A stretch of 64,000 bases of DNA from positions 1 to 64,000 of the forward strand of contig CANPIM010000004.1 in assembly GCA_947574135.1 (NCBI GenBank), in the 5' to 3' direction. How positions within the stretch are numbered: position 1 is the stretch's first letter; each line of letters begins with the position of its first letter. A program made the translations under genes and the position numbers. The notes beneath the pieces were generated by a model. It was not told the DNA's origin. It was given only the letters and a program-made list of their open reading frames with translations, and searched no databases. The stretch comes from an uncultured Lachnospiraceae bacterium (GTDB lineage Bacteria > Bacillota > Clostridia > Lachnospirales > Lachnospiraceae). Positions 1 to 61,441 of the stretch are shown piece after piece.

Positions 1-51
1 CTTGAAATGACGGAGTCAGAGTCCGTTGCCTTACCGTTTGGCGATAGCCCT
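1..51 (-). tRNA. tRNA-Gln (anticodon CUG), truncated by the window start
   Basis: Reverse complement reads AGGGCTA-TC-GCC-AAACGGTAA-GGC-A-ACGGA-CTCTGAC-TCCGT...; D stem GCC/GGC, anticodon stem ACGGA/TCCGT, loop CT-CTG-AC. The T arm and 3' acceptor lie outside the window. Confidence 0.88.
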
Positions 52-136
52 TCGTTTGTGTGTCAACAAATGGTATTATAAAGGATCTCCCATAAAAATG
101 CAAGTCTTTTTTTGAAAATTTTTATTTTTTTGAATT

Positions 137-1579
137 TTATCTTTTTTCCATCTTTTTCTGCCCATAGCGGGCAAAGGCTCTTCTTCGCATTATAAAGTAT
201 GCCGCCAGAACCATGGTCCCTGTAATCACCCAGCTGACCGGGTACACCACCATGAGCATCTCAAAACTTGCAAACTTTTGAAACACTGTGTACAACCACA
301 TAATCCGGAATCCGCAAGATCCGATGACTGTCAGAAGAGCCGGCAGCATAGAATAGCCTAGACCCCGAAGGGCTGCGCCGCTTACCTCATAAGTAACTGG
401 CAGACAGGCAAAAGCTTCCACGCAAAGTACCCGCGTCATGGCATAGGCAATCACCTCGTCCTCCACGGTATAAACACGAATAAATATCCGCCGGCCAAGG
501 ACAAAGACCATGCTCATGATTCCGGTTATAAGCAAAGCGCATCCCACAGTCAGTCCAAATATTCGCCGGCAGCGCTTAAGCTCTCCAGCCCCAAAATTCT
601 GGCTGGTAAAGGTCACGGCTGCCTGGCTAAAGGCACTGGTTACAAAATAAGTAAAGGACTCAAAGTTTAAGGCTGCAGCAGATCCGGCTACGGCATCCGA
701 GCCAAACCCGTTGATGGCCGTCTGAATGCATACATTAGAGAGGGAAAACACCATTCCCTGGATTCCTGCCGGGATCCCGATCTGAACCATCCGAAGCACA
801 TGCTCTCTTTTCAGTGATAAATTGTGTGGCTTTAGCTGAATGGTTCCCCTCTCATGGAGGAGAAAATATACAATGAGCCCTGCGCTCACCATATTGGCCA
901 GCACTGTGGCTATGGCTACACCCGCCACGCTTAACTTACACACCACCACAAAAAACAGATTCAGGCACACATTCACCACGCCGGAGAGCAGCAGGCAATA
1001 CAGAGGGCGCTTGGTGTCCCCCACACTGCGCAGGATTGCCGCCCCAAAATTATACAGCATCACAAAGGGCATTCCCAGAAAATAAATCCGCAGATATACC
1101 ACAGCCAGCTCCAATACATCCCCGGGGGTATTCATCAGGAGCAAAAGCGGCCGTGCGGCCAGGATTCCCACAAAAATCAAAAACACTCCGCTGATAAGAG
1201 CCATGGCAATGGCTGTATGGACGGCCTCCTGTGCCTTGTCCTCCCTTCCCTGGCCAATATAGCTGGCGATAAGCACATTGGTCCCCACAGACAGGCCCAC
1301 AAAAAGATTGATGAGAAGATTGACCACCGCGCCGTTTCCTCCCACAGCCGCCAGGGCCTGACTGCCTGAAAATCTTCCCACCACCGCCACATCTGCAGAA
1401 TTAAACAGCTGTTGCAAAATGCTGCTGGCCGCCAGGGGCAAGGCAAAAACCAAGATCTTATCCAGCAAAGAGCCCTTGAGCATATCCATCTGCCGGCCCG
1501 CCCCTGCTTTCGTCTCCATCTGCCGACCCGCCTCTGCTTTCATCTCTCCCTGCCGTTCTTCCTCCTGTGTCCTGTTCAT
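137..1579 (-). CDS. MATE family efflux transporter
   Basis: 12-TM MATE-like sequence (LPLAASSILQQLFNSADVAVVGRFSG); N-terminal extension contains a 10-aa repeat. Confidence 0.93.
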   Translation of the reverse strand: MNRTQEEERQGEMKAEAGRQMETKAGAGRQMDMLKGSLLDKILVFALPLAASSILQQLFNSADVAVVGRFSGSQALAAVGGNGAVVNLLINLFVGLSVGTNVLIASYIGQGREDKAQEAVHTAIAMALISGVFLIFVGILAARPLLLLMNTPGDVLELAVVYLRIYFLGMPFVMLYNFGAAILRSVGDTKRPLYCLLLSGVVNVCLNLFFVVVCKLSVAGVAIATVLANMVSAGLIVYFLLHERGTIQLKPHNLSLKREHVLRMVQIGIPAGIQGMVFSLSNVCIQTAINGFGSDAVAGSAAALNFESFTYFVTSAFSQAAVTFTSQNFGAGELKRCRRIFGLTVGCALLITGIMSMVFVLGRRIFIRVYTVEDEVIAYAMTRVLCVEAFACLPVTYEVSGAALRGLGYSMLPALLTVIGSCGFRIMWLYTVFQKFASFEMLMVVYPVSWVITGTMVLAAYFIMRRRAFARYGQKKMEKR

Positions 1580-1617
1580 TTCCGCTCCTCAGCCACATAA
1601 CTTTTCTCTGTGGTCAT
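1576..1617 (-). CDS. Possible mini-cistron 2, MTTEKSYVAEERK
   Basis: Same peptide with one synonymous change (AGC>AGT); its stop overlaps the MATE ATG. Confidence 0.35.
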   Translation of the reverse strand: MTTEKSYVAEERK

Positions 1618-1693
1618 TTCCGCTCCTCAGCCACATAGCTTTTCTCTGTGGTCATTTCCGCTCCTCAGCCACATAGCTTTTTTCTATGGTCAT
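1580..1693 (-). repeat. 38-bp tandem repeat, 3 copies, at the CDF stop / MATE start junction
   Basis: Unit (minus strand) ATGACCACAGAGAAAAGCTATGTGGCTGAGGAGCGGAA; the last copy ends at the MATE ATG. Confidence 0.95.
1614..1655 (-). CDS. Possible mini-cistron 1, MTTEKSYVAEERK
   Basis: ATG overlaps the CDF stop (ATGA), is preceded by GAGGAG, and ends in ATGA. Confidence 0.35.
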   Translation of the reverse strand: MTTEKSYVAEERK

Positions 1694-2836
1694 GACACAC
1701 TGGTATCGGGAATCCTCCCGACGAAGCTCCTCCATAATCTGTTGCTGCAGCTTGCGCTGCTCCTTCTCCTGGTAGGAAAAAGGCACCACCACATCAAAAA
1801 TCAGATTGATCTGCTCTCTTCCATCCACCATCCGGAAATCATGAATGGAAAGCCCCTCGTCAATGCGGTGGACCACCTGCTCCACCTGGGTTCGGACCTC
1901 ATTTACATGCGTGTCGTGGGTCTCCACCGGATCCATATGGATCACCAGAAAAATCCCCAGCCTTTTGGCCGCATCTCTCTCGATTCTATCAATAATCTCA
2001 TGGGATGCCTCGATATCCACGTCATTGGGCACCTCCGCATGAATCGAGGCCAGGCTTCTGGTAGGCCCATAATTGTGTACAATCAGATCATGGGTTCCCA
2101 CAATTCCCTCATAGCTCTCCACCAGCTCCGTCACTGCCTGGTAAACCTCCGGGGAGACCGCCTCCCCAATCAAAGGCTCCAAGGTGTCCCTTGCAATGCT
2201 CAGTCCAGCCCACATAACAATCAATGCCACCACAAGTCCCACATAGCCGTCAATATTCACCCCGGTAAAATGAAAAATGCAGATGGAGCCTATGGTGGCC
2301 GTGGTAGTACAAACGTCTCCCAGCGCATCCGTGGCTGTGGCCAGCATGACCTTGGAGCGAATGCGTTTTCCCAGCTTTCGGTTAAAATAAGCCATCCAAA
2401 GCTTCACAGCTATGGAAGCCAGAAGCACTGCCAGCGATACCATTTGAAAGGACAAATCCTCCGGATTCCGGATCTTTTCAACTGCATTTTTTAAGAAGGT
2501 AAAGCCCACCTCCATCACCAGAAACGACACAATCAGTGCCGCAATATATTCAATCCTTCCGTGTCCGAAGGGATGATTCTGATCTGCCGGCTTGCTGGCC
2601 ATTTTCACCCCGATAAATCCAATGACAGAGGATGCCGCATCCGAAAGATTATTAAAGGCATCTGCTGTTACAGAAATACTGTGCAGCAAAAGACCTGCCG
2701 TAAGCTTTCCGGCAAAAAGCAGCAGATTGCAAAAAATGCCGATGGTGCTGCCCAACACGCCATAAGCCGTGCGCACCCTGGCATTCTCTGTCTCCTCATA
2801 ATTTTTTACAAATCGATGTACCAAAAACTCAATCAT
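1652..2836 (-). CDS. Cation diffusion facilitator (CDF) family transporter
   Basis: SVTADAFNNLSDAASSVIGFIGVKMASKPADQNHPFGHGRIEYIAAL is a typical CDF core; C-terminal cytoplasmic domain present. Confidence 0.95.
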   Translation of the reverse strand: MIEFLVHRFVKNYEETENARVRTAYGVLGSTIGIFCNLLLFAGKLTAGLLLHSISVTADAFNNLSDAASSVIGFIGVKMASKPADQNHPFGHGRIEYIAALIVSFLVMEVGFTFLKNAVEKIRNPEDLSFQMVSLAVLLASIAVKLWMAYFNRKLGKRIRSKVMLATATDALGDVCTTTATIGSICIFHFTGVNIDGYVGLVVALIVMWAGLSIARDTLEPLIGEAVSPEVYQAVTELVESYEGIVGTHDLIVHNYGPTRSLASIHAEVPNDVDIEASHEIIDRIERDAAKRLGIFLVIHMDPVETHDTHVNEVRTQVEQVVHRIDEGLSIHDFRMVDGREQINLIFDVVVPFSYQEKEQRKLQQQIMEELRREDSRYQCVMTIEKSYVAEERK

Positions 2837-3113
2837 ACGACGGATGCCTTCTTCATTTTCATAATTTTATTCTGCCATCTGCATTTTCAGTCCAAAACTT
2901 TGTCAGACATCGAATCTCATGCCCAAGCTCCTGAAAAGCTTTTTGCAACAGGGGGATCCCCTTGTCAACTGAGAGTATCATATTTTCCTGAAAAAAGAAA
3001 GCGTAATCTTGCTATTTTTATTTAAATATGCTATTTTATTTAAAATTAGTGTGCCTGCTGGCCCCCGGAAAACGCCTGTCAGGAAGGTACAGAAAAAGGA
3101 GAGAGATACCCTT

Positions 3114-4568
3114 ATGAGTACAATGAATTTAACTCTGATGACCGATTTATATGAGCTGACCATGATGCAGGGATATTTTAAGAGTCAGTCCGATGAAACC
3201 GTGGTGTTCGACATGTTTTATCGGCGCAATCCCTGTGGAAACGGATTTGCCATTGCGGCCGGACTGGAACAGGTAATCGATTATATAAGCAATTTAACCT
3301 TCACGCCGGAGGATATTTCCTATCTTCGGAGCCTACGTCTCTTTGACGAGGATTTTCTGGCCTATCTGGAGGGCTTTCATTTTTCCGGCGACATCTATGC
3401 CATTCCCGAGGGAACGGTGGTGTTTCCCAGAGAGCCCCTTTTAAAGGTTATTGCCCCCATTATGGAGGCCCAGCTGGTTGAGACCGCCATTCTCACCATT
3501 ATCAACCACCAAAGCCTCATTGCCACCAAGACCTCCCGTGTGGTTCACGCGGCTAAGGGGGACGGCATTATGGAATTTGGCCTGCGGCGGGCCCAGGGAC
3601 CGGACGCAGGGATTTATGGCGCCCGGGCTGCCATGGTTGGCGGCTGTATCGGCACCTCCAACGTACTGGCAGGCCAGCTCTTTGACGTGCCGGTAAAGGG
3701 CACTCATGCCCACAGCTGGATTATGAGCTTCCCCGACGAATATACAGCCTTTAAAACCTATGCAGATCTGTATCCAAAGGCCTGTATTCTCCTGGTGGAC
3801 ACCTACGACACCCTGAAATCCGGCGTGCCAAATGCCATCCGGGTATTCCGGGAAATGCGGGATGCGGGAATCCCCTTAAATTTCTACGGCATACGCCTGG
3901 ACAGCGGCGATCTGGCTTACATGTCCAAGAAAGCCCGGAAAATGCTGGATGATGCCGGCTTCCCGGACGCCATTATCTCCGCCTCCAGCGATCTGGATGA
4001 ATATCTGATCACCAGCCTCAAGGGACAGGGAGCTCAGATCACCTCCTGGGGCGTTGGCACCAATATGATCACCTCCAGCGATTGTCCCGCCTTTGGGGGC
4101 GTCTATAAGCTGGCCGCCGTGCAGGATGGGGAGGGAGAATTTATTCCCAAGATCAAGCTGTCCGAGAACACGGAGAAAATTACCAATCCGGGCAATAAAA
4201 CCATTTTCCGGATTTACGAGAAGGAAACAGGAAAAATGAAGGCAGACCTGATTTGCCTGTCTGACGAAACCTTTGATACCTCCCAGGATCTCCTGATCTT
4301 TGATTCCATTGAGACCTGGAAAAAGACCAAGTTAAAGGGCGGAGAATACACCATGCGGGAGCTTTTGATTCCGGTCTTTGAAAAGGGTCGTCTGGTCTAC
4401 CAGTCTCCCTCTGTTATGGAAATTCGGGAATACTGCCAGAGAGAGCAGGAAACCCTCTGGGATGAGACCCGCCGCCTGACCAACCCGCACAAGGTGTATG
4501 TAGATCTCTCCGACAAGCTTTTCCGCATTAAGTCCGGACTTTTGGATCAGATGAATCAGACCCTATAG
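3114..4568 (+). CDS. pncB: Nicotinate phosphoribosyltransferase
   Basis: MSTMNLTLMTDLYELTMMQGYF...EFGLRRAQGPDAG; start chosen at 3114 after AGGAGAG. Confidence 0.93.
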   Translation: MSTMNLTLMTDLYELTMMQGYFKSQSDETVVFDMFYRRNPCGNGFAIAAGLEQVIDYISNLTFTPEDISYLRSLRLFDEDFLAYLEGFHFSGDIYAIPEGTVVFPREPLLKVIAPIMEAQLVETAILTIINHQSLIATKTSRVVHAAKGDGIMEFGLRRAQGPDAGIYGARAAMVGGCIGTSNVLAGQLFDVPVKGTHAHSWIMSFPDEYTAFKTYADLYPKACILLVDTYDTLKSGVPNAIRVFREMRDAGIPLNFYGIRLDSGDLAYMSKKARKMLDDAGFPDAIISASSDLDEYLITSLKGQGAQITSWGVGTNMITSSDCPAFGGVYKLAAVQDGEGEFIPKIKLSENTEKITNPGNKTIFRIYEKETGKMKADLICLSDETFDTSQDLLIFDSIETWKKTKLKGGEYTMRELLIPVFEKGRLVYQSPSVMEIREYCQREQETLWDETRRLTNPHKVYVDLSDKLFRIKSGLLDQMNQTL

Positions 4569-4608: not shown

Positions 4609-4660
4609 ATACTCCCCGGGCCTGTGTAAAAACCGGCAGGCCCGGGGAGTATTTTATTTT
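4609..4660 (+). terminator. Intrinsic terminator after pncB
   Basis: 16-bp stem ATACTCCCCGGGCCTG / CAGGCCCGGGGAGTAT followed by TTTATTTT. Confidence 0.88.
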
Positions 4661-7362
4661 ATCTGGGGATTTTTTCGGGAATATATCCGTCTGCGAAGTC
4701 CTGCCAGAATCATAGGCGCCAGAACACAGGCTGTGAGGATTCCCAGGGAGGCCAACAAAAGTCTGGTCTGATTCTGCCTCCAGTATTTCTGGAGAGGCGT
4801 AAACCAGTAAGCCCGGCTGGCTTTGGCCGAAGCGCTGCTCTCCTTCTCCTCAATCTCCATGGTTCCTGCCGTATATACGCCTCTGGAGGACCACCGGTAA
4901 TCCCCGGCCTCCATGTCATCCAGATTCACCCGGCCCTCTTCGTCCGTCTCTGCGGTAAATAAATATCCGTCCTCGTCATAGAAATCAATGCTGTCATTAG
5001 CCATATCTTCCCCAAACTTTACATTGACCCGGAAGCTCTCCTTTACCTCAATCTGTTCAATGGAATCCATAATAGCATCACTCACCTTCGATGCATCGCT
5101 GACCCCTGCATAGCTGCCGCCCGTTTCCTCCGAAATGCTGGCAAAAAAGTCCTCCGCATCGCTGCTGGCATCTGTGCCAATGGAAAACACATTGATAAGG
5201 CTCTCTCCCATGGCCTCAGCCACCCGCTTGTCCGACTTCTCATAATCCAGACTGATGTCCGCGTTAAACAAAGCCACCAAAACATCCTCATAGGTATATC
5301 CTGTCACAGGCTCCGGGCTCAAGGGCGCCGCATCCCCCAGGATAATGATAATCTTCTTTGCATGCAGTCTCCAGTCCAGCCTTACTGCCTCCATAAGGGC
5401 AGAATAGACGGTCTCCCTATCGTCTCCTCCGTCACCCAGATCCAGTCCGTTTACCGCGTTTGTTATCTCGGCATCATCATTGCTAAAGGGAAGCTGCACC
5501 CTGCTGGGATAATCCTCGGATTCTCCGGAGCGATCCGGAAAATCCCGGTAATCAATCAAAGCCACCCGATAATTCTCTGTTTTCTCCCGCAGGCTCTCCA
5601 GAATGTTTACCATATTTGCCTTGGCATTGTCAATATCGTCCGACATGGAGCCGGTAGTGTCCACCACAAAGCACAGATCCATTCCGTCGTTAACGGAAGT
5701 CTGAAGCACACGGCCCAGGGTCATATCCCTCGATTTCAAAGCGTTGACTGTGGCTTCCCCTGCATCCACCATGCCGCTGTGGCCGCCCTCATAATAATAC
5801 CGGCCTGTGGTGGATGCCAGGAGAATCTGCTTTACCTCCGGCCCGGTCAGCTCCGGGTTGCAGGCAAATATCAGCCCGGCCACACCGGTGACATGAGGCG
5901 TTGACATGGAGGTGCCGCTCATGCCCTCATAGCCGTTCGCCACACAGCTGTACACATCCACCCCAGGTCCTACAATATCCACTCTTGAACCAATATTGGA
6001 AAAATTCGCATAGGAGTAAAAGGTCTCATTGGCCGTGGAGCGCCCCTCATCAATCCCTACGGCTCCCACTACCACCACCCGATCCTGCACCTCCTGGGCG
6101 CTCATTAGATTCAGAAAATTGTTGTAAAGCGCCTGGGAGCCTCCCCTCTGGCCTCTCCAGCCAAAGAGATATTTCACGCTTTCCCAGCCCGTCATCTCCT
6201 CCCGATATCCATAGGTCTGACTTTCATCCGGGTAATAATAGCTGGAATTGCTGTTTCCAGCCGCCACACAGATTAAAAAGTCCGGTTTCCCTGCCTGCTC
6301 CCTGGCGGAAATAATTCGGGATAATCCGGCCTCTGTCATTCTGGCCTGCTGGGTAAGATACTGAATTGCATTCTGGTTTCCGTGACTGGCCGCAAATCCA
6401 ATGAGCCGCCGGGTATTCTGGCTGATATTGATCACCTGAACATCCTGATCGATGAGATTTTTCAGACATAAAAGATAGCTATATGCCGTTCCATATCTTG
6501 ATACATAATTGCTTCCCATATCATAATATGTATGACAATAATACAACTCACCCATTCCGCCCATAACTCCCGTAACTCCGGTGCCATTGTCCCATTCTCC
6601 GTCCATAATGCCGGAAACGTGACTGCCATGGTCATCCGAGGCCACACTGTAGGTATCGGCCTCTACTCTGCCGTTCTTTGGATTCACAAACAGACAGGTG
6701 GCATTGGCAAAGTCCAGATCCTCATGGGCAGTATTGGGCTTGCTGTCAATAAGCCCAATCTTCACTGTACGCATCTCATCCCGGTACCCCCAGGCATTGG
6801 GAGCATGGATGGCCTCCATTCCCCAGTTTTCTCCCCGTGGCACCTCCATATCCCAGTCATCCCCATTCCAGGAATCCGAAGGGTAGGCGGCATCCTTATA
6901 GGGAAAGTCATCCTCCTCCCCCTCCTCCTCGTCTGCCTCAAACTCAGAGACCACATTCAGGTAGGCATCCTCCACCGTATCCCGGGTCTTGATTTTTTTG
7001 ACCAGGCGCTCCAGCTCCTCATAGGTCATGGCGTCCTTAAGCATCAGCTTATACACCCCAATGTCCCCCATGGTCTCGTCCAGCTCTCCCCCATAGTCCT
7101 CCGCAAGCCGAACCATCTGCTCCGCGGTTGTAGAGGCTTTGGCAAAGATCACTACCTCATTGTTGATATACAGAACCCCGTTCTCCTGATTAAAATCAAT
7201 ATATTCCGATTCCTCCGCAATAAAGGGAGTCTCGTCAATCTCATTCCGGTTGAGATCAAAGAAATTGGGAAACAGAAAAAACACCCAAAGAGCCAGAAAA
7301 GCTCCAAAGGCCAGAATCAAAATCAATAATCCAATGAGAATGCGCTTACATATTTTTTTCAT
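4654..7362 (-). CDS. Membrane-anchored subtilisin-like (S8) serine protease with a vWA domain
   Basis: IGLIDSKPN, DDHGSHVSG and SGTSMSTPHVTG (S8 triad motifs); vWA MIDAS FVVDTTGSMSDD; N-terminal and C-terminal TM segments. Start set at MKKICKRIL, overlapping the upstream gene. Confidence 0.9.
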   Translation of the reverse strand: MKKICKRILIGLLILILAFGAFLALWVFFLFPNFFDLNRNEIDETPFIAEESEYIDFNQENGVLYINNEVVIFAKASTTAEQMVRLAEDYGGELDETMGDIGVYKLMLKDAMTYEELERLVKKIKTRDTVEDAYLNVVSEFEADEEEGEEDDFPYKDAAYPSDSWNGDDWDMEVPRGENWGMEAIHAPNAWGYRDEMRTVKIGLIDSKPNTAHEDLDFANATCLFVNPKNGRVEADTYSVASDDHGSHVSGIMDGEWDNGTGVTGVMGGMGELYYCHTYYDMGSNYVSRYGTAYSYLLCLKNLIDQDVQVINISQNTRRLIGFAASHGNQNAIQYLTQQARMTEAGLSRIISAREQAGKPDFLICVAAGNSNSSYYYPDESQTYGYREEMTGWESVKYLFGWRGQRGGSQALYNNFLNLMSAQEVQDRVVVVGAVGIDEGRSTANETFYSYANFSNIGSRVDIVGPGVDVYSCVANGYEGMSGTSMSTPHVTGVAGLIFACNPELTGPEVKQILLASTTGRYYYEGGHSGMVDAGEATVNALKSRDMTLGRVLQTSVNDGMDLCFVVDTTGSMSDDIDNAKANMVNILESLREKTENYRVALIDYRDFPDRSGESEDYPSRVQLPFSNDDAEITNAVNGLDLGDGGDDRETVYSALMEAVRLDWRLHAKKIIIILGDAAPLSPEPVTGYTYEDVLVALFNADISLDYEKSDKRVAEAMGESLINVFSIGTDASSDAEDFFASISEETGGSYAGVSDASKVSDAIMDSIEQIEVKESFRVNVKFGEDMANDSIDFYDEDGYLFTAETDEEGRVNLDDMEAGDYRWSSRGVYTAGTMEIEEKESSASAKASRAYWFTPLQKYWRQNQTRLLLASLGILTACVLAPMILAGLRRRIYSRKNPQIK

Positions 7363-8128
7363 ATTTTTTCCCTCTGCACACCATGATACAAGAATAAACG
7401 GAGAGCAAAACCGCTCCCAGCAGCATCCAAAGAAGGGCAAACATAAAGCTTACATCCTGAAAAGCCTCCATGGACGCCTTCAGAACACTCTGCAGCCCTC
7501 CGGACATGTTCTCCACCAGCGAAGGCCAGAAAAGGCCCAAAAGAAGGCTTATAAGCCCTGTCAAAAGACCGGATATCCCCAAAGAGAAAAAGAATCTTCT
7601 GATCCGCCGGATATTCAAAAAAACCATGCAAAACAGGGGAATCGCCACCAAAATTCCGCCCAAAAGCAACAAAAGCACAGACTCCAGAAGCTCTGTAAGC
7701 CTGTCTCCCGAGATTCCCCCCACAGACGGAAAATGCACATTGGCCGCCAGGCCGTGGAAAAAGGCTATGGCCGGCAGCATAGCAGCAAAAAGAATAAAAA
7801 ACAACGAAAAAAATCCTGTGGCAAGGCCGGAGGGAACTCCCCGGGATCTCTTCGGCCCGTCTTCCTCCTTACCGGATTCCTGGCCTCTCCATTCCTCTGG
7901 GATCCCTAGCTCCTCCCCGGCTCTTTCCTCCTGAAGCTCTTCCGTCTCCGGCTCAAAAGCTTCCCCTTTCCATTCGCTCCCCGAGGCAAAACTCTCTTCC
8001 TTGGGCCCCGGCTCTTCCTCCAGTCTGGCTCCGCATCCCGGGCAAAAGCTGCCTCCCGGGGATACCTCCTGGCCACATTCCGGGCAAAAACGCCTGCCCG
8101 GATTCTCCCTATCATACGCTGTACTCAT
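7346..8128 (-). CDS. Zinc-ribbon multi-pass membrane protein
   Basis: FCPECGQEVSPGGSFCPGCGARL zinc ribbon, acidic linker, about four TM segments. Confidence 0.75.
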   Translation of the reverse strand: MSTAYDRENPGRRFCPECGQEVSPGGSFCPGCGARLEEEPGPKEESFASGSEWKGEAFEPETEELQEERAGEELGIPEEWRGQESGKEEDGPKRSRGVPSGLATGFFSLFFILFAAMLPAIAFFHGLAANVHFPSVGGISGDRLTELLESVLLLLLGGILVAIPLFCMVFLNIRRIRRFFFSLGISGLLTGLISLLLGLFWPSLVENMSGGLQSVLKASMEAFQDVSFMFALLWMLLGAVLLSVYSCIMVCRGKKYEKNM

Positions 8129-42577: not shown

Positions 42578-45500
42578 TTACAATTCAAAATCCTTTTCCA
42601 TCAACACATAATTGCCGAATTCATCCTGACGCCGTTTGGAAAACAGCCTTTTGATGCCTCTTCGGCTGGAGCTGATAATGGCGTCGTCGATCATATCCTT
42701 CACCTCCGCCACATTGACCAGATGATCGCTGGTCTGGTTGTTTCCAATCCGGTTGTAGAGAGCCAGCACAGCCATCTCGTCCAGCACATAGCCCTGCTCC
42801 TGACCGTAGGATTTTCCAAAGGCCACCAGCTCATGGTTGGTAAATACGGGAATCTCAATGGTCCGCTCAAATTTCGCCCCCAGGCTCTCGCAGCGGGTAA
42901 AAAGCTTTTTCACCTCCGCCGGCTCATCCTCCAGCACTACAAACAGGTTTCCCGTCTGCCGAAGCATGGCTCCGGAAAGCTTAGCCGCTGTTTCCGCCGT
43001 CATGCCCCCGGCCCGCTCAATCACCAGCGCACCTCCGTTCAGCTTGCGTACCACGGCCGCCACGTCTCTCTGATTCATGGAATCTCCCGTGACCCTGGCC
43101 ATTTTGCTTCCCGTCACTCCCCGAAGCTTTTGAATGGCTTTTACCAGATCCACCGCCAGGGTGGTTTTGCCGCTTCCGCTCACCCCGGTGACTACAATAT
43201 TTCCCGCCACAGAGGTGCCGTCCAGCTGGCGGTTTTCCTCGTCCTCCAAAAACTGGGACAGCTGCTGATTCATGCCATGGACAGAGGTAAAATAGGCAAA
43301 CAGCTTCTCCTGCTCGTCACTGAGCCTTTTACCGCTCACATGCTTTAGCTCATCCTCCAGCACCTTTTCCAGATCCCACATCATCTCCGAAGCTTTTCTC
43401 TTCTTTCCCGATGGGGCGTCCTGAGCTTCCTTCTGCCGGCTTTCCTGCGCTTCCTTTTTCTTTTCTTTTTTTGCCGCTCCCTTTCCGGCTGTCTCTTCCT
43501 CCTGAAGCTGGTCCTCTCCCTCCTGGGACGCTTCTTCCTGGTATGGATCCTCCTCTTCCCTGTATTCCTCTTCCTGGTACGGATCCTCTTCTTCCCTGTA
43601 TTCCTCCTGGTACGGATCCTCTTCTTCCCCGTATTCCTCCTCTGTCAGCCTGGAAGTTTCCGTTTCCGGAAACAGATCTCCGCCGGCCTCCATTTCTTCC
43701 CGAATAGCCTCTCTGAGAATTTCCTCTATCTCATCCTCCTGGGGATACTCCTCATTCTCCTGGGGATACTCCTCATCCTCTTCATCCTCGGCTTCCCCGT
43801 AATTGTCGCCCGCCTCATAGACCTCAGGATCTCCATCATCTCCGTAAGACTCTTCTGCAGACTCCTCCGGCCAGAGGTCAGCTTCCTCATAAGAGGTACC
43901 CTCTCCCTCTGAAGCTTGGCCATATCCCTGCGTATCCTGGGTATCCATCCAGGCAGCCTCTTCACAATCCTTATAAGAGCCAATCCCTGTATCAGGGCTC
44001 TCCTCCTGGTCATACTCCTCATACTCCTGGAACTCCTCATATTCTTCCTGACCGGCACCCCCGTCCTCATAGACGGCCTCTTCTTCCATGCCAGCCTCAT
44101 TCTCATAAAGGCCCTCGTCCTCATAGACAGCCTCTTCTTCCATGCCAGCCTCATTCTCATAGAGGCCCTCATCCTCATAGACAGCCTCTTCTTCCATGCC
44201 AGCCTCGTCCCCATAGACAGGCTCATCCTCATTGCGGCCCTCGTCCTGAAGGAAGCCTGGATCCTCCCGCTCAATAGGCTCTACAATAATTTTTACCGGA
44301 AGCTTGCCCTCGATCTCATCCAGCAGCTCCTGCACATCCGGCGGAATCAGACCACTCTGAAAATCCACTGCCTCCAATCTCCGGCGCAATGCCTCCTCTT
44401 TACGCTCCTGTTCCTCCTTGGCTATGCGATCCAGCTCTGCACCCATTTTCTGTTTCTTGACTTCCCACTCTGCCAAAATGTCCTCTATACGCATCTGGCC
44501 GGTGATCTGTCTGTCCAAAACATTTTCTTTATCATCGAAGGTCAGCTGGCCATCCTCCGTCTGTCCCAGATATAGCTTCCGGGCCTTGTCGGACTCTTCG
44601 GTGGCAGCATCCTCCCCTTCCTTCTCCACATCAGCCTCATTGACGCCATCTACATCATCGCCTTCTCCGTAGAGCTCCTCTTCGTAGCCGCCTTCCCCAT
44701 AGAGCTCCCCTTCGTAGCCGCCTTCCCCATAGAATTCCTCTCCATTACCGGCTTCCTCATAACTGCCGTCCCCATAGACAGGCTCCCCATAGCCTTCGTC
44801 CTCGGCTTCTCCATAGGTCTCACCATCATAAACAGCTTCCTCGTCTCCGGCTTCTCCATAGGTCTCACCATCATAAACGGCTTCCTCGTCTCCGGCTTCT
44901 CCATAGGTCTCACCATTATAAACGGCTTCCTCGTCCCCATAACAGCCTTCTTCTAAATAGCCCTCTGTCTCATAACCCCCGTCCTCGTAAGCAGGCTCCC
45001 CGTAGCCTCCGTCCTCGTAGACAGGCTCTCCATAGCCTTCGTCCCCATAGACAGGCTCCACATAACCTTCGTCCTCATAGACAGGTTCTTCATAAACAGG
45101 CTCTCCATAACCTTCGTCCTCATAGACGGGCTCTCCATAGGCAGGCTCCACATAACCTTCGTCCTCATAAACAGGCTCCCCATAGCCTCCGTCCTCGTAG
45201 ACAGGCTCTCCATAGCCTTCGTCCTCGTAAACAGGCTCCCCATAGCCTCCGTCCTCGTAGACAGGCTCTCCATAGCCTTCGTCCTCATAAACAGGCTCTC
45301 CATAGGCAGGCTCCGCATAACCTTCATCCTCATAAACAGGCTCCCCATAGGCCTCCTCTTCATAGCCGTTCTCAGGATATTCCTCTTGGGCATAGCCGGC
45401 ATCTGTATAGCCATCTCCGGCATAGGTCTGACTGGCCAGGGCTTCCTCTCCAAACAGATCCCGAAGGCCGGCGGCCACCTCGGCCTGCAGATTTACGGTG

Positions 45501-46246
45501 TTGTACCGCTCCTCCGGGTCAACGGTGCGAATCTCTATTTCCGGCTCCTCCGAATCTCCCAGATAGACATCTTCCGGAGAAACATCCTCCATCCCATTCG
45601 CAGACAAAGCAAGTTCATCCTCCGTGTGGACATAGCTCCGATATTTCTGCTCCTGAGAGCTGGTCAGGGGCTGAAGCTTCATTTTTAACTCCATGGCCCG
45701 ACGAACGTATTCTCCCTCGCTAAACCACAGAATCAGATCGTCGCACTCCTCCACGCACTTTTGGGTCATTCCCTCCTGATAATACAATAGCGCCAGCTCA
45801 TAGGCCCATTTCTCATGGTACTCCCGGCCCTTAAACTCCTCCAGAATGGCAATGAGATCCTCTGCCGGCGCGCCCTTGGCCTGGTAAAGCTTGTATTTCA
45901 AAATATAGCGACTCAAATCATGAGGCGCGATCTTTACAAATTCCTTGTAAAGCTCCGTCGCCTCGTCAAACTCTCCCATAAGTGTGGCCAGCTCCGCCAT
46001 TTTATACACAATCATACGGCCAATAGGAGCCCTGTCATAGGCCATATTCAAAAGCTCGTAGCTGTCCTCGTATCGTTTCAGCTTCTCATAAGCTTCGCTC
46101 ACCTGCATCAAAAGCTCTACATTTTTTACCCGCTTCCACTCTATTCCATCCGCAATCTTTACCGCCATGCGATAATCCTTGCGCTCAATAAGCTTCTGAA
46201 TCTGCTCTGCTTTTATCCTAAATTCATACTTGTCCAAAAGTTTCAC
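42578..46246 (-). CDS. Large TPR / acidic tandem-repeat / P-loop ATPase protein
   Basis: N-terminal TPR-like helices; long Glu/Tyr-rich repeats; C-terminal Walker A VTGVSGSGKTTLAVDLVKAIQ and AAA-like region. Confidence 0.85.
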   Translation of the reverse strand: MKLLDKYEFRIKAEQIQKLIERKDYRMAVKIADGIEWKRVKNVELLMQVSEAYEKLKRYEDSYELLNMAYDRAPIGRMIVYKMAELATLMGEFDEATELYKEFVKIAPHDLSRYILKYKLYQAKGAPAEDLIAILEEFKGREYHEKWAYELALLYYQEGMTQKCVEECDDLILWFSEGEYVRRAMELKMKLQPLTSSQEQKYRSYVHTEDELALSANGMEDVSPEDVYLGDSEEPEIEIRTVDPEERYNTVNLQAEVAAGLRDLFGEEALASQTYAGDGYTDAGYAQEEYPENGYEEEAYGEPVYEDEGYAEPAYGEPVYEDEGYGEPVYEDGGYGEPVYEDEGYGEPVYEDGGYGEPVYEDEGYVEPAYGEPVYEDEGYGEPVYEEPVYEDEGYVEPVYGDEGYGEPVYEDGGYGEPAYEDGGYETEGYLEEGCYGDEEAVYNGETYGEAGDEEAVYDGETYGEAGDEEAVYDGETYGEAEDEGYGEPVYGDGSYEEAGNGEEFYGEGGYEGELYGEGGYEEELYGEGDDVDGVNEADVEKEGEDAATEESDKARKLYLGQTEDGQLTFDDKENVLDRQITGQMRIEDILAEWEVKKQKMGAELDRIAKEEQERKEEALRRRLEAVDFQSGLIPPDVQELLDEIEGKLPVKIIVEPIEREDPGFLQDEGRNEDEPVYGDEAGMEEEAVYEDEGLYENEAGMEEEAVYEDEGLYENEAGMEEEAVYEDGGAGQEEYEEFQEYEEYDQEESPDTGIGSYKDCEEAAWMDTQDTQGYGQASEGEGTSYEEADLWPEESAEESYGDDGDPEVYEAGDNYGEAEDEEDEEYPQENEEYPQEDEIEEILREAIREEMEAGGDLFPETETSRLTEEEYGEEEDPYQEEYREEEDPYQEEEYREEEDPYQEEASQEGEDQLQEEETAGKGAAKKEKKKEAQESRQKEAQDAPSGKKRKASEMMWDLEKVLEDELKHVSGKRLSDEQEKLFAYFTSVHGMNQQLSQFLEDEENRQLDGTSVAGNIVVTGVSGSGKTTLAVDLVKAIQKLRGVTGSKMARVTGDSMNQRDVAAVVRKLNGGALVIERAGGMTAETAAKLSGAMLRQTGNLFVVLEDEPAEVKKLFTRCESLGAKFERTIEIPVFTNHELVAFGKSYGQEQGYVLDEMAVLALYNRIGNNQTSDHLVNVAEVKDMIDDAIISSSRRGIKRLFSKRRQDEFGNYVLMEKDFEL
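43540..43640 (-). repeat. 33/36-bp tandem repeat (EEYREEEDPYQ)
   Basis: Three consecutive near-identical units in frame. Confidence 0.8.
44068..44232 (-). repeat. 54-bp (18-aa) tandem repeat, three copies
   Basis: Units of YENEAGMEEEAVYEDEGL. Confidence 0.88.
44810..44945 (-). repeat. 45-bp (15-aa) tandem repeat, three copies
   Basis: EEAVYDGETYGEAGD units. Confidence 0.88.
44960..45390 (-). repeat. 30-bp (10-aa) tandem repeat array with higher-order structure
   Basis: Many GEPVYED(E/G)GY units alternating E/G, with occasional AEPAY/VEPAY variants. Confidence 0.9.
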
Positions 46247-60079: not shown

Positions 60080-61441
60080 CTATCTGGTCCCTAAAAGGCT
60101 CTGATCAAAGGCATACAGTGCTTCGTTGATCTGCAGAATATCATAAATGCGGTTTTGGATAAAATATTCCATGATAATATCAAACTTGCTGGAGTGAGAC
60201 AGGGCAAATCCTGCCTTCTGAAGCAATTCCCCCGTCTCCTCCAGGGACAGCTCCAAGGCAATGGCAAAGGCAAGCGCCGTGGATTTGCTGGGTTTATACT
60301 GTACATCGCTTCGTATTTTTGAAAAAAGCTTTCTATCTATATGGGCCTTTTTGTAGCACTCTGCATCCGTCATTCCCTTTTCCGTGATTTTTCGGAGGAG
60401 AGCCTGGGAAAAGCTCTCATCCATCTGCCTTAGCATATCAGCCAGGCTAGGCGCAGCCGGAGCACCCTGGGCCTGGGGCATAGATTGGGGACAGCCACGA
60501 GACAGCCAGGATCCCCGGATGCGGCCGGATGATTTGGACACTGGGGTCTCGGCTCGGCCGATGGGTTTGGACGTAGGGGCCTCGGCCCGGCCGGTGGGTT
60601 TGGACGTAGGGGCCTCGCCACGGCCGGGAGCCTTGGACGCTGGGGCCTCGGCTCGGCCGGGAGTCTTGGACGCTGGAGCCTCGGCTCGGCCGGGAGCCTT
60701 GGACGCTGGGGTCTCGGCCCGGCCGGTGGGTTTGGACGATGGGGTCTTGGCCCGGTCAGGAGCCTCGGACGCTGGGGTCTCGGCTCGGCCGGTGGGTTTG
60801 GACGATGGAGCCTCGGCCCGGTCGGGCGGACACGGCGGGGCGGCCGATGGGAAGGACGGCGAAGCTTGCGGCAGCGGGAAGGGCGGGGAGGGGGAAAAGG
60901 CAGCCGGGTCAAAGGTGATAAAAGTGGCGCTGTCCTCCATCACACTCACCTGGGCAAGCCTGCTCTCCATATATTCCCTGATATCCTCCATGCGGTCCCT
61001 GTCCCCATATTTGACCATGGCCCTTATGAGCTCTTTCTTGATAGGAACATATTCCTTTTCAGGGATAACCAAATATACCAGCAGATCACTCGCATCTAAA
61101 AATCTGCCGATTTCCTCAACAGCCACCAGAAGAGCCTGCTCTCTGGCGGCCGCAGAACCTCCCACAGAAAAGAGCGGAATGGCAACATCCTGGCAGGCGT
61201 ATTCTTTTGCAAGCTCCAGGGCCTCTCCATAGCAGGCTCTCAGCCTTTCCCATTTCTGCTGCTTTCCCTGATACCAGCGGGGAGCATGGGTGTGGATCAC
61301 AAATTTACAGGACAATCCCTCTGCCCTGGTAATTGGGGGCGCGTCTGCCTGTAAAGCTTTGGGCAGACGAAAGCCTGCGGCGGTGACAATGACGTCGCAG
61401 GCCAGATCGGTAATATCTCTCTGTACAATTTTAAGTGGCAT
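60080..61441 (-). CDS. Macro-domain protein (degenerate loop 1) with 11-aa repeat linker and C-terminal HTH-like domain
   Basis: MPLKIVQRDITDLACDVIV...KFVIHTHAPRW...ACYGEALELAKEYACQDVAIPLFSVGG; C-terminal DESFSQALLRKITEKGMTDAECYKKAHIDRKLFSKIRSDVQYKPSKSTALAFAIALELSLEETGELLQKAG. Confidence 0.82.
   Translation of the reverse strand: MPLKIVQRDITDLACDVIVTAAGFRLPKALQADAPPITRAEGLSCKFVIHTHAPRWYQGKQQKWERLRACYGEALELAKEYACQDVAIPLFSVGGSAAAREQALLVAVEEIGRFLDASDLLVYLVIPEKEYVPIKKELIRAMVKYGDRDRMEDIREYMESRLAQVSVMEDSATFITFDPAAFSPSPPFPLPQASPSFPSAAPPCPPDRAEAPSSKPTGRAETPASEAPDRAKTPSSKPTGRAETPASKAPGRAEAPASKTPGRAEAPASKAPGRGEAPTSKPTGRAEAPTSKPIGRAETPVSKSSGRIRGSWLSRGCPQSMPQAQGAPAAPSLADMLRQMDESFSQALLRKITEKGMTDAECYKKAHIDRKLFSKIRSDVQYKPSKSTALAFAIALELSLEETGELLQKAGFALSHSSKFDIIMEYFIQNRIYDILQINEALYAFDQSLLGTR
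60533..60826 (-). repeat. 33-bp (11-aa) tandem repeat in macro-domain protein linker, about nine units
   Basis: GRAEAPASKAP-type units (GRAETPASKAP / GRAEAPASKTP / GRGEAPTSKPT ...). Confidence 0.9.

Follow-up and report, generated by a model that had tools for sequence, protein, structure and literature searches.

The locus lies at the start of the window, i.e., the whole stretch of 64,000 nucleotides of an uncultured Lachnospiraceae bacterium that was analyzed. It carries two transporter genes on the minus strand with a tandem array at their junction, and its features are as follows.

1..50 (-): tRNA-Gln fragment, truncated by the contig end; identity taken from the same sequence in the related locus L068, called tRNA-Gln(CTG) by ARAGORN
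137..1579 (-): frame of a MATE-family efflux transporter, 480 aa (TIGR00797, E 1.5e-64; PF01554)
1481..1555 (-): second tandem array, period 30 (10 codons), 2.2-2.5 copies, in frame in the MATE N-terminal extension
1576..1579 (-): closing ATGA, which is the stop of mini-ORF 2 and the ATG (M1) of the open MATE frame, and equals the 4-bp microhomology
1580..1617 (-): copy 3 of the 38-bp unit; mini-ORF 2 at 1617-1576
1585..1590 (-): SD-like GAGGAG, 5 nt before the ATG of the MATE frame; anti-SD duplex -8.8 kcal/mol
1618..1655 (-): copy 2 of the unit; mini-ORF 1 at 1655-1614, 13 codons plus stop, with an ATGA overlap at both ends
1656..1693 (-): copy 1 of the unit, within the CDF frame, reading MTIEKSYVAEERK
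1652..2836 (-): ORF of a CDF-family cation efflux transporter gene (TIGR01297, E 3.4e-59; PF01545, PF16916)

The 118 bp from 1693 to 1576 on the minus strand consist of three 38-bp units and the closing ATGA (118 = 3 x 38 + 4) and read ATGACCATAGAAAAAAGCTATGTGGCTGAGGAGCGGAA / ATGACCACAGAGAAAAGCTATGTGGCTGAGGAGCGGAA / ATGACCACAGAGAAAAGTTATGTGGCTGAGGAGCGGAA / ATGA(ACAGG). The source of the repeat is the final 38 nt of the CDF gene before the overlap. TRF reported the array at 1576-1693 with a period of 38, 3.1 copies, 96% matches and a score of 215, and the triplication that the earlier note had described from the letters is therefore a real repeat. The near-identical copies stand head to tail, as in minisatellites; copies 1 and 2 differ by two bases and copies 2 and 3 by one synonymous base (AGC/AGT), and both mini-ORFs encode the same peptide, MTTEKSYVAEERK. 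GAGGAG recurs at 1623-1628 and 1661-1666 and thus precedes the ATGA after every copy by 5 nt, and stop/start overlaps of -4 nt (ATGA) are found at 1652-1655, 1614-1617 and 1576-1579. The note's account of two extra copies chained by ATGA, each with GAGGAG and differing by one synonymous change, is borne out in these respects.

The conserved part of MATE begins at about M31 (MDMLKGSLL), and the period-30 array at 1481-1555, with several in-frame ATGs, lies about 20 bp beyond the 38-bp array. ARAGORN made no call on the truncated tRNA copy at 1..50. A scan over 1-3200 found no sigma-70-like promoter by the consensus used, which is weak evidence, and no slippery heptamer (X XXY YYZ) for a programmed -1 frameshift was seen by eye at CGGAAATGA. 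Further into the window, an ORF at 4654-7440 has a subtilisin-like protease stretch and, after it, one resembling von Willebrand A (by eye).

In the nearest relative (L068/L003), whose CDF protein is 92% identical and whose CDF gene differs by 14% in DNA as far as the repeat, the unit is present in a single copy, GAGGAGAGAAAATGAACAGG (ATGACTATGGAGAAGAGCTATGTGGCGGAGGAGAGAAAATGAACAGG), without MATE and with tRNA-Gln within about 150 bp. One copy is likewise present in L032 (CDF 86% identical) and in L033 (77%), with other stops and without MATE. The single copy in L068, L032 and L033 is the ancestral state expected of a minisatellite. In the window, the MATE gene separates the CDF end from this tRNA-Gln, which directly follows CDF in the relatives; MATE at 137-1579 was not seen at that place in the sampled congeners, and CDF and tRNA-Gln (1-50) are adjacent in the close relatives. 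A MATE homolog beside CDF (tblastn, E ≤ 1e-20) was found at none of the 109 loci from other genomes whose flanks were examined, a few of which represent the same genome twice. The best MATE homolog among 397 family genomes is 62% identical, the best matches of the congeners reach 45-49% identity, and a search for a plasmid match to the array or the CDF-MATE junction returned none.

Loss of MATE from L068 was considered and rejected, as the 60 bp after ATGAACAGG match MATE no better than shuffles (59/300 reach the score). Given that no MATE remnant was found in L068, gain of MATE in this lineage is preferred over loss, and the simplest history would place this gain at the CDF/tRNA-Gln spot. The SD-like GAGGAG and ATGA are older than the MATE neighbor, because the single-copy locus of L068/L003 already has GAGGAG…AAATGAACAGG without MATE. 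With GAGGAG and ATGAACAGG present before MATE, neither was built for it.

The four extra bases of the array are the ATGA common to both breakpoints, GTC-ATGA-CC and GAA-ATGA-AC. The breakpoint identity is exactly 4 bp and qualifies as microhomology, which by itself could be chance. Slippage between two ATGA tetramers at a distance of 38 bp, or recombination at such short homologies, should leave this signature, and we infer that one of them produced the array. When the differences were polarized by relatives, T8C was derived and common to copies 2 and 3, C18T was derived and restricted to copy 3, and A12G was ambiguous; copy 1 is nearest to the outgroup L032, from which it differs at 1 of 28 nt. 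The pattern of T8C and C18T therefore calls for at least two sequential duplications, and the simplest order would be duplication, substitution, a second duplication of the changed unit and further substitution. The copies differ from one another at 1-3 of 38 positions vs. 7-8 for each copy against L068, very small counts that are consistent with an origin of the array after the split from L068. A recent slippage event was one of the two options of the earlier note. The slippage is supported by the exact ATGA microhomology, the single copy in relatives and the array-rich genome; the single event is not, since at least two duplications took place.

Tandem arrays with a period of 12 or more occur at 9.3 per 100 kb in 464 kb of sampled stretches of the same genome and at 3.5 (G001), 10.9 (G002) and 3.0 (G003) per 100 kb in congeners, a rough comparison because the part from the window is rich in repeats and most of the samples come from contig starts. 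Other arrays in the window include various in-frame tandem arrays (periods 15-90 bp) across 43512-45364 within a 1222-codon ORF at 42578-46246, and nine in-frame 33-bp repeats at 60522-60826 in a 453-codon ORF, the start of which is macrodomain-like by eye. Near-perfect arrays whose periods are not multiples of three are also found elsewhere in the genome at L159 11403-11641 (109 x 2.2), L150 59-197 (23 x 6) and L156 3795-3893 (49 x 2).

The repeat itself is real, but nothing about its chained mini-ORF layout is remarkable. Starting from the single-copy sequence, we simulated all duplications 20-100 bp long that include the ATGA overlap. Every duplication with a unit length of 2 mod 3 (1512/1512, 33% of all) yielded a mini-ORF closed at the next ATGA, while none of the 3105 duplications of other unit lengths gave chained mini-ORFs; the prior for 38 = 39-1 is therefore one third. 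If the breakpoints lay in these two ATGA tetramers, chaining was certain. The flanking proteins are unchanged by any duplication that contains the overlap, which is therefore tolerated. Other ATGA-chained tandem arrays were not found in about 2 Mb of sequence, nor was the same array found elsewhere when 61 genomes were searched for the unit, which is single in two congeners.

Overlaps of -4 nt are the commonest layout for translational coupling, for which the final 15 nt of an upstream gene are enough (PMC10666635). In reporter pairs of E. coli and H. volcanii, a stop-to-start distance of about 20-38 nt abolished most or all of the coupling, and in E. coli it was largely lost at a distance of 38 nt (PMC10666635). 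A 76-nt insert should thus break coupling between CDF and MATE unless the mini-ORFs pass ribosomes on. Each copy contains the parts needed for such a hand-on, and passive coupling via the mini-ORFs would be mechanistically plausible. RNA structure that masks the MATE start in a copy-dependent manner was rejected as having a small effect only: the predicted opening energy at the MATE start goes from 7.8 kcal/mol with one copy to 6.5 with two and 6.2 with three, and therefore indicates no strong copy-dependent structure.

Our preferred reading, which we hold with good though not full confidence, is a lineage-specific tandem duplication in two steps that was tolerated, that may act as a passive relay if MATE starts at the ATGA and that has no tuning role. 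The terminal 38 bp of the CDF gene would have been duplicated twice by template slippage or recombination between the ATGA tetramers. With the -4 nt overlap inside the unit, the CDF and MATE proteins would both have remained unaltered and the duplication would have been tolerated; with a unit of 2 mod 3, every copy would have become a closed mini-ORF carrying its own GAGGAG. If ribosomes begin MATE at the ATGA, the mini-ORFs would pass them on as passive relays and so sustain termination-reinitiation over 76 nt that would otherwise interrupt coupling, and no tuning role would have evolved. Weak selection could also explain the retention of three copies with both mini-ORFs intact, a matter on which three substitutions have no power; the analysis covered one genome of the species, a draft assembly.

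The start of MATE bears on the alternative that survives best. The final ATGA does open the MATE frame, as the earlier note had proposed for the start, but in several MATE homologs about 10-20 residues precede the conserved MDML, which puts their starts near M13 or M21 of this frame. M1 may therefore be a captured start or go unused. Translation of MATE could then begin at M13 or a later ATG from a leader that the gene brought with it, with the array as irrelevant CDF 3' sequence. The starts of homologs at 53-62% identity fall near M13/M21 (in L213, for example, GGAGAAGAGATG...), the residues preceding M13, 12 in number, are without counterpart in homologs, and ATGAACAGG is the CDF 3' flank in L068. 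The site at M13 (AGGAGG 17 nt and AGGGAG only 2 nt away) is, however, poorer than the GAGGAG-5 nt-ATG at M1, and the frame is open from M1. An inert spacer of this kind is unlikely.

The other option of the earlier note was a relay tuned by copy number, in which the array was selected because the supply of ribosomes to MATE, relative to CDF, depends on how many ATGA-linked mini-cistrons there are. The SD-like GAGGAG at 5 nt in every copy, with its anti-SD duplex, and the -4 nt overlaps would suit such a relay. The age of GAGGAG and ATGA, both present in a relative without MATE, stands against it, and so do the chaining expected in one third of junction-spanning duplications, the lack of an independent case in the sequence and genomes searched, and an opening cost at the MATE start that barely depends on copy number. 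We consider this tuned relay improbable. Still more doubtful is the extended version, in which a copy-number-variable relay of mini-cistrons from the CDF tail placed the newly arrived MATE under the translational control of the older gene, tuned by slippage; a literature search on copy-number-dependent coupling by tandem mini-ORFs returned nothing relevant. An assembler stutter on a single or double copy is also very improbable: the draft has 123 contigs and one contig end is 1.6 kb away from the array, but the copies carry distinct substitutions, two of them polarized by relatives, which makes stutter less likely, and 118 bp are within the span of ordinary 150-base reads.

A tolerated duplication of this kind has implications beyond the locus. 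A tandem duplication that spans a -4 nt gene overlap buffers itself: both proteins stay whole whenever the overlap lies within the unit, and one in three unit lengths yields closed, potentially coupled mini-ORFs for which selection is unnecessary. Caution is therefore advised before such arrays are read as evolved regulators. The array also provides a natural test case for the decay of coupling along serial short cistrons.

The mycobacterial interspersed repetitive unit (MIRU) is the closest candidate for a functional analog of the array. As described in PMC12548453, citing Supply et al. (1997), the internal ORF of a MIRU is coupled to the downstream gene at -4 nt, which is thought to permit insertion with little effect on expression. 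Both are short repeats between co-directed genes with an internal ORF linked by a -4 nt stop/start overlap. MIRUs, however, are apparently mobile and occupy many sites, whereas the 38-bp unit was copied locally from the 3' end of a single gene and is found at one place only in a Lachnospiraceae-like genome. The array is not a MIRU, because its unit is not dispersed.

The predicted mini-ORFs also resemble the leaders of bicistronic designs and natural coupled uORFs (PMC12548453), such as the two-codon minigene of axe-txe (PMC8708949), in that a short ORF lies near or overlaps the next start, to which it would bring ribosomes. Those ORFs are translated and consist of one leader cistron, whereas here there are two serial copies born from the tail of the upstream gene. 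With tandem duplications at microhomology and VNTR minisatellites, the array shares the head-to-tail arrangement, short breakpoint identity, stepwise growth and lineage specificity. It differs from ordinary VNTR minisatellites in that the stop/start overlap is spanned and the copies are read as closed mini-ORFs. As a sequence feature, the array is most likely an ordinary lineage-specific tandem duplication.
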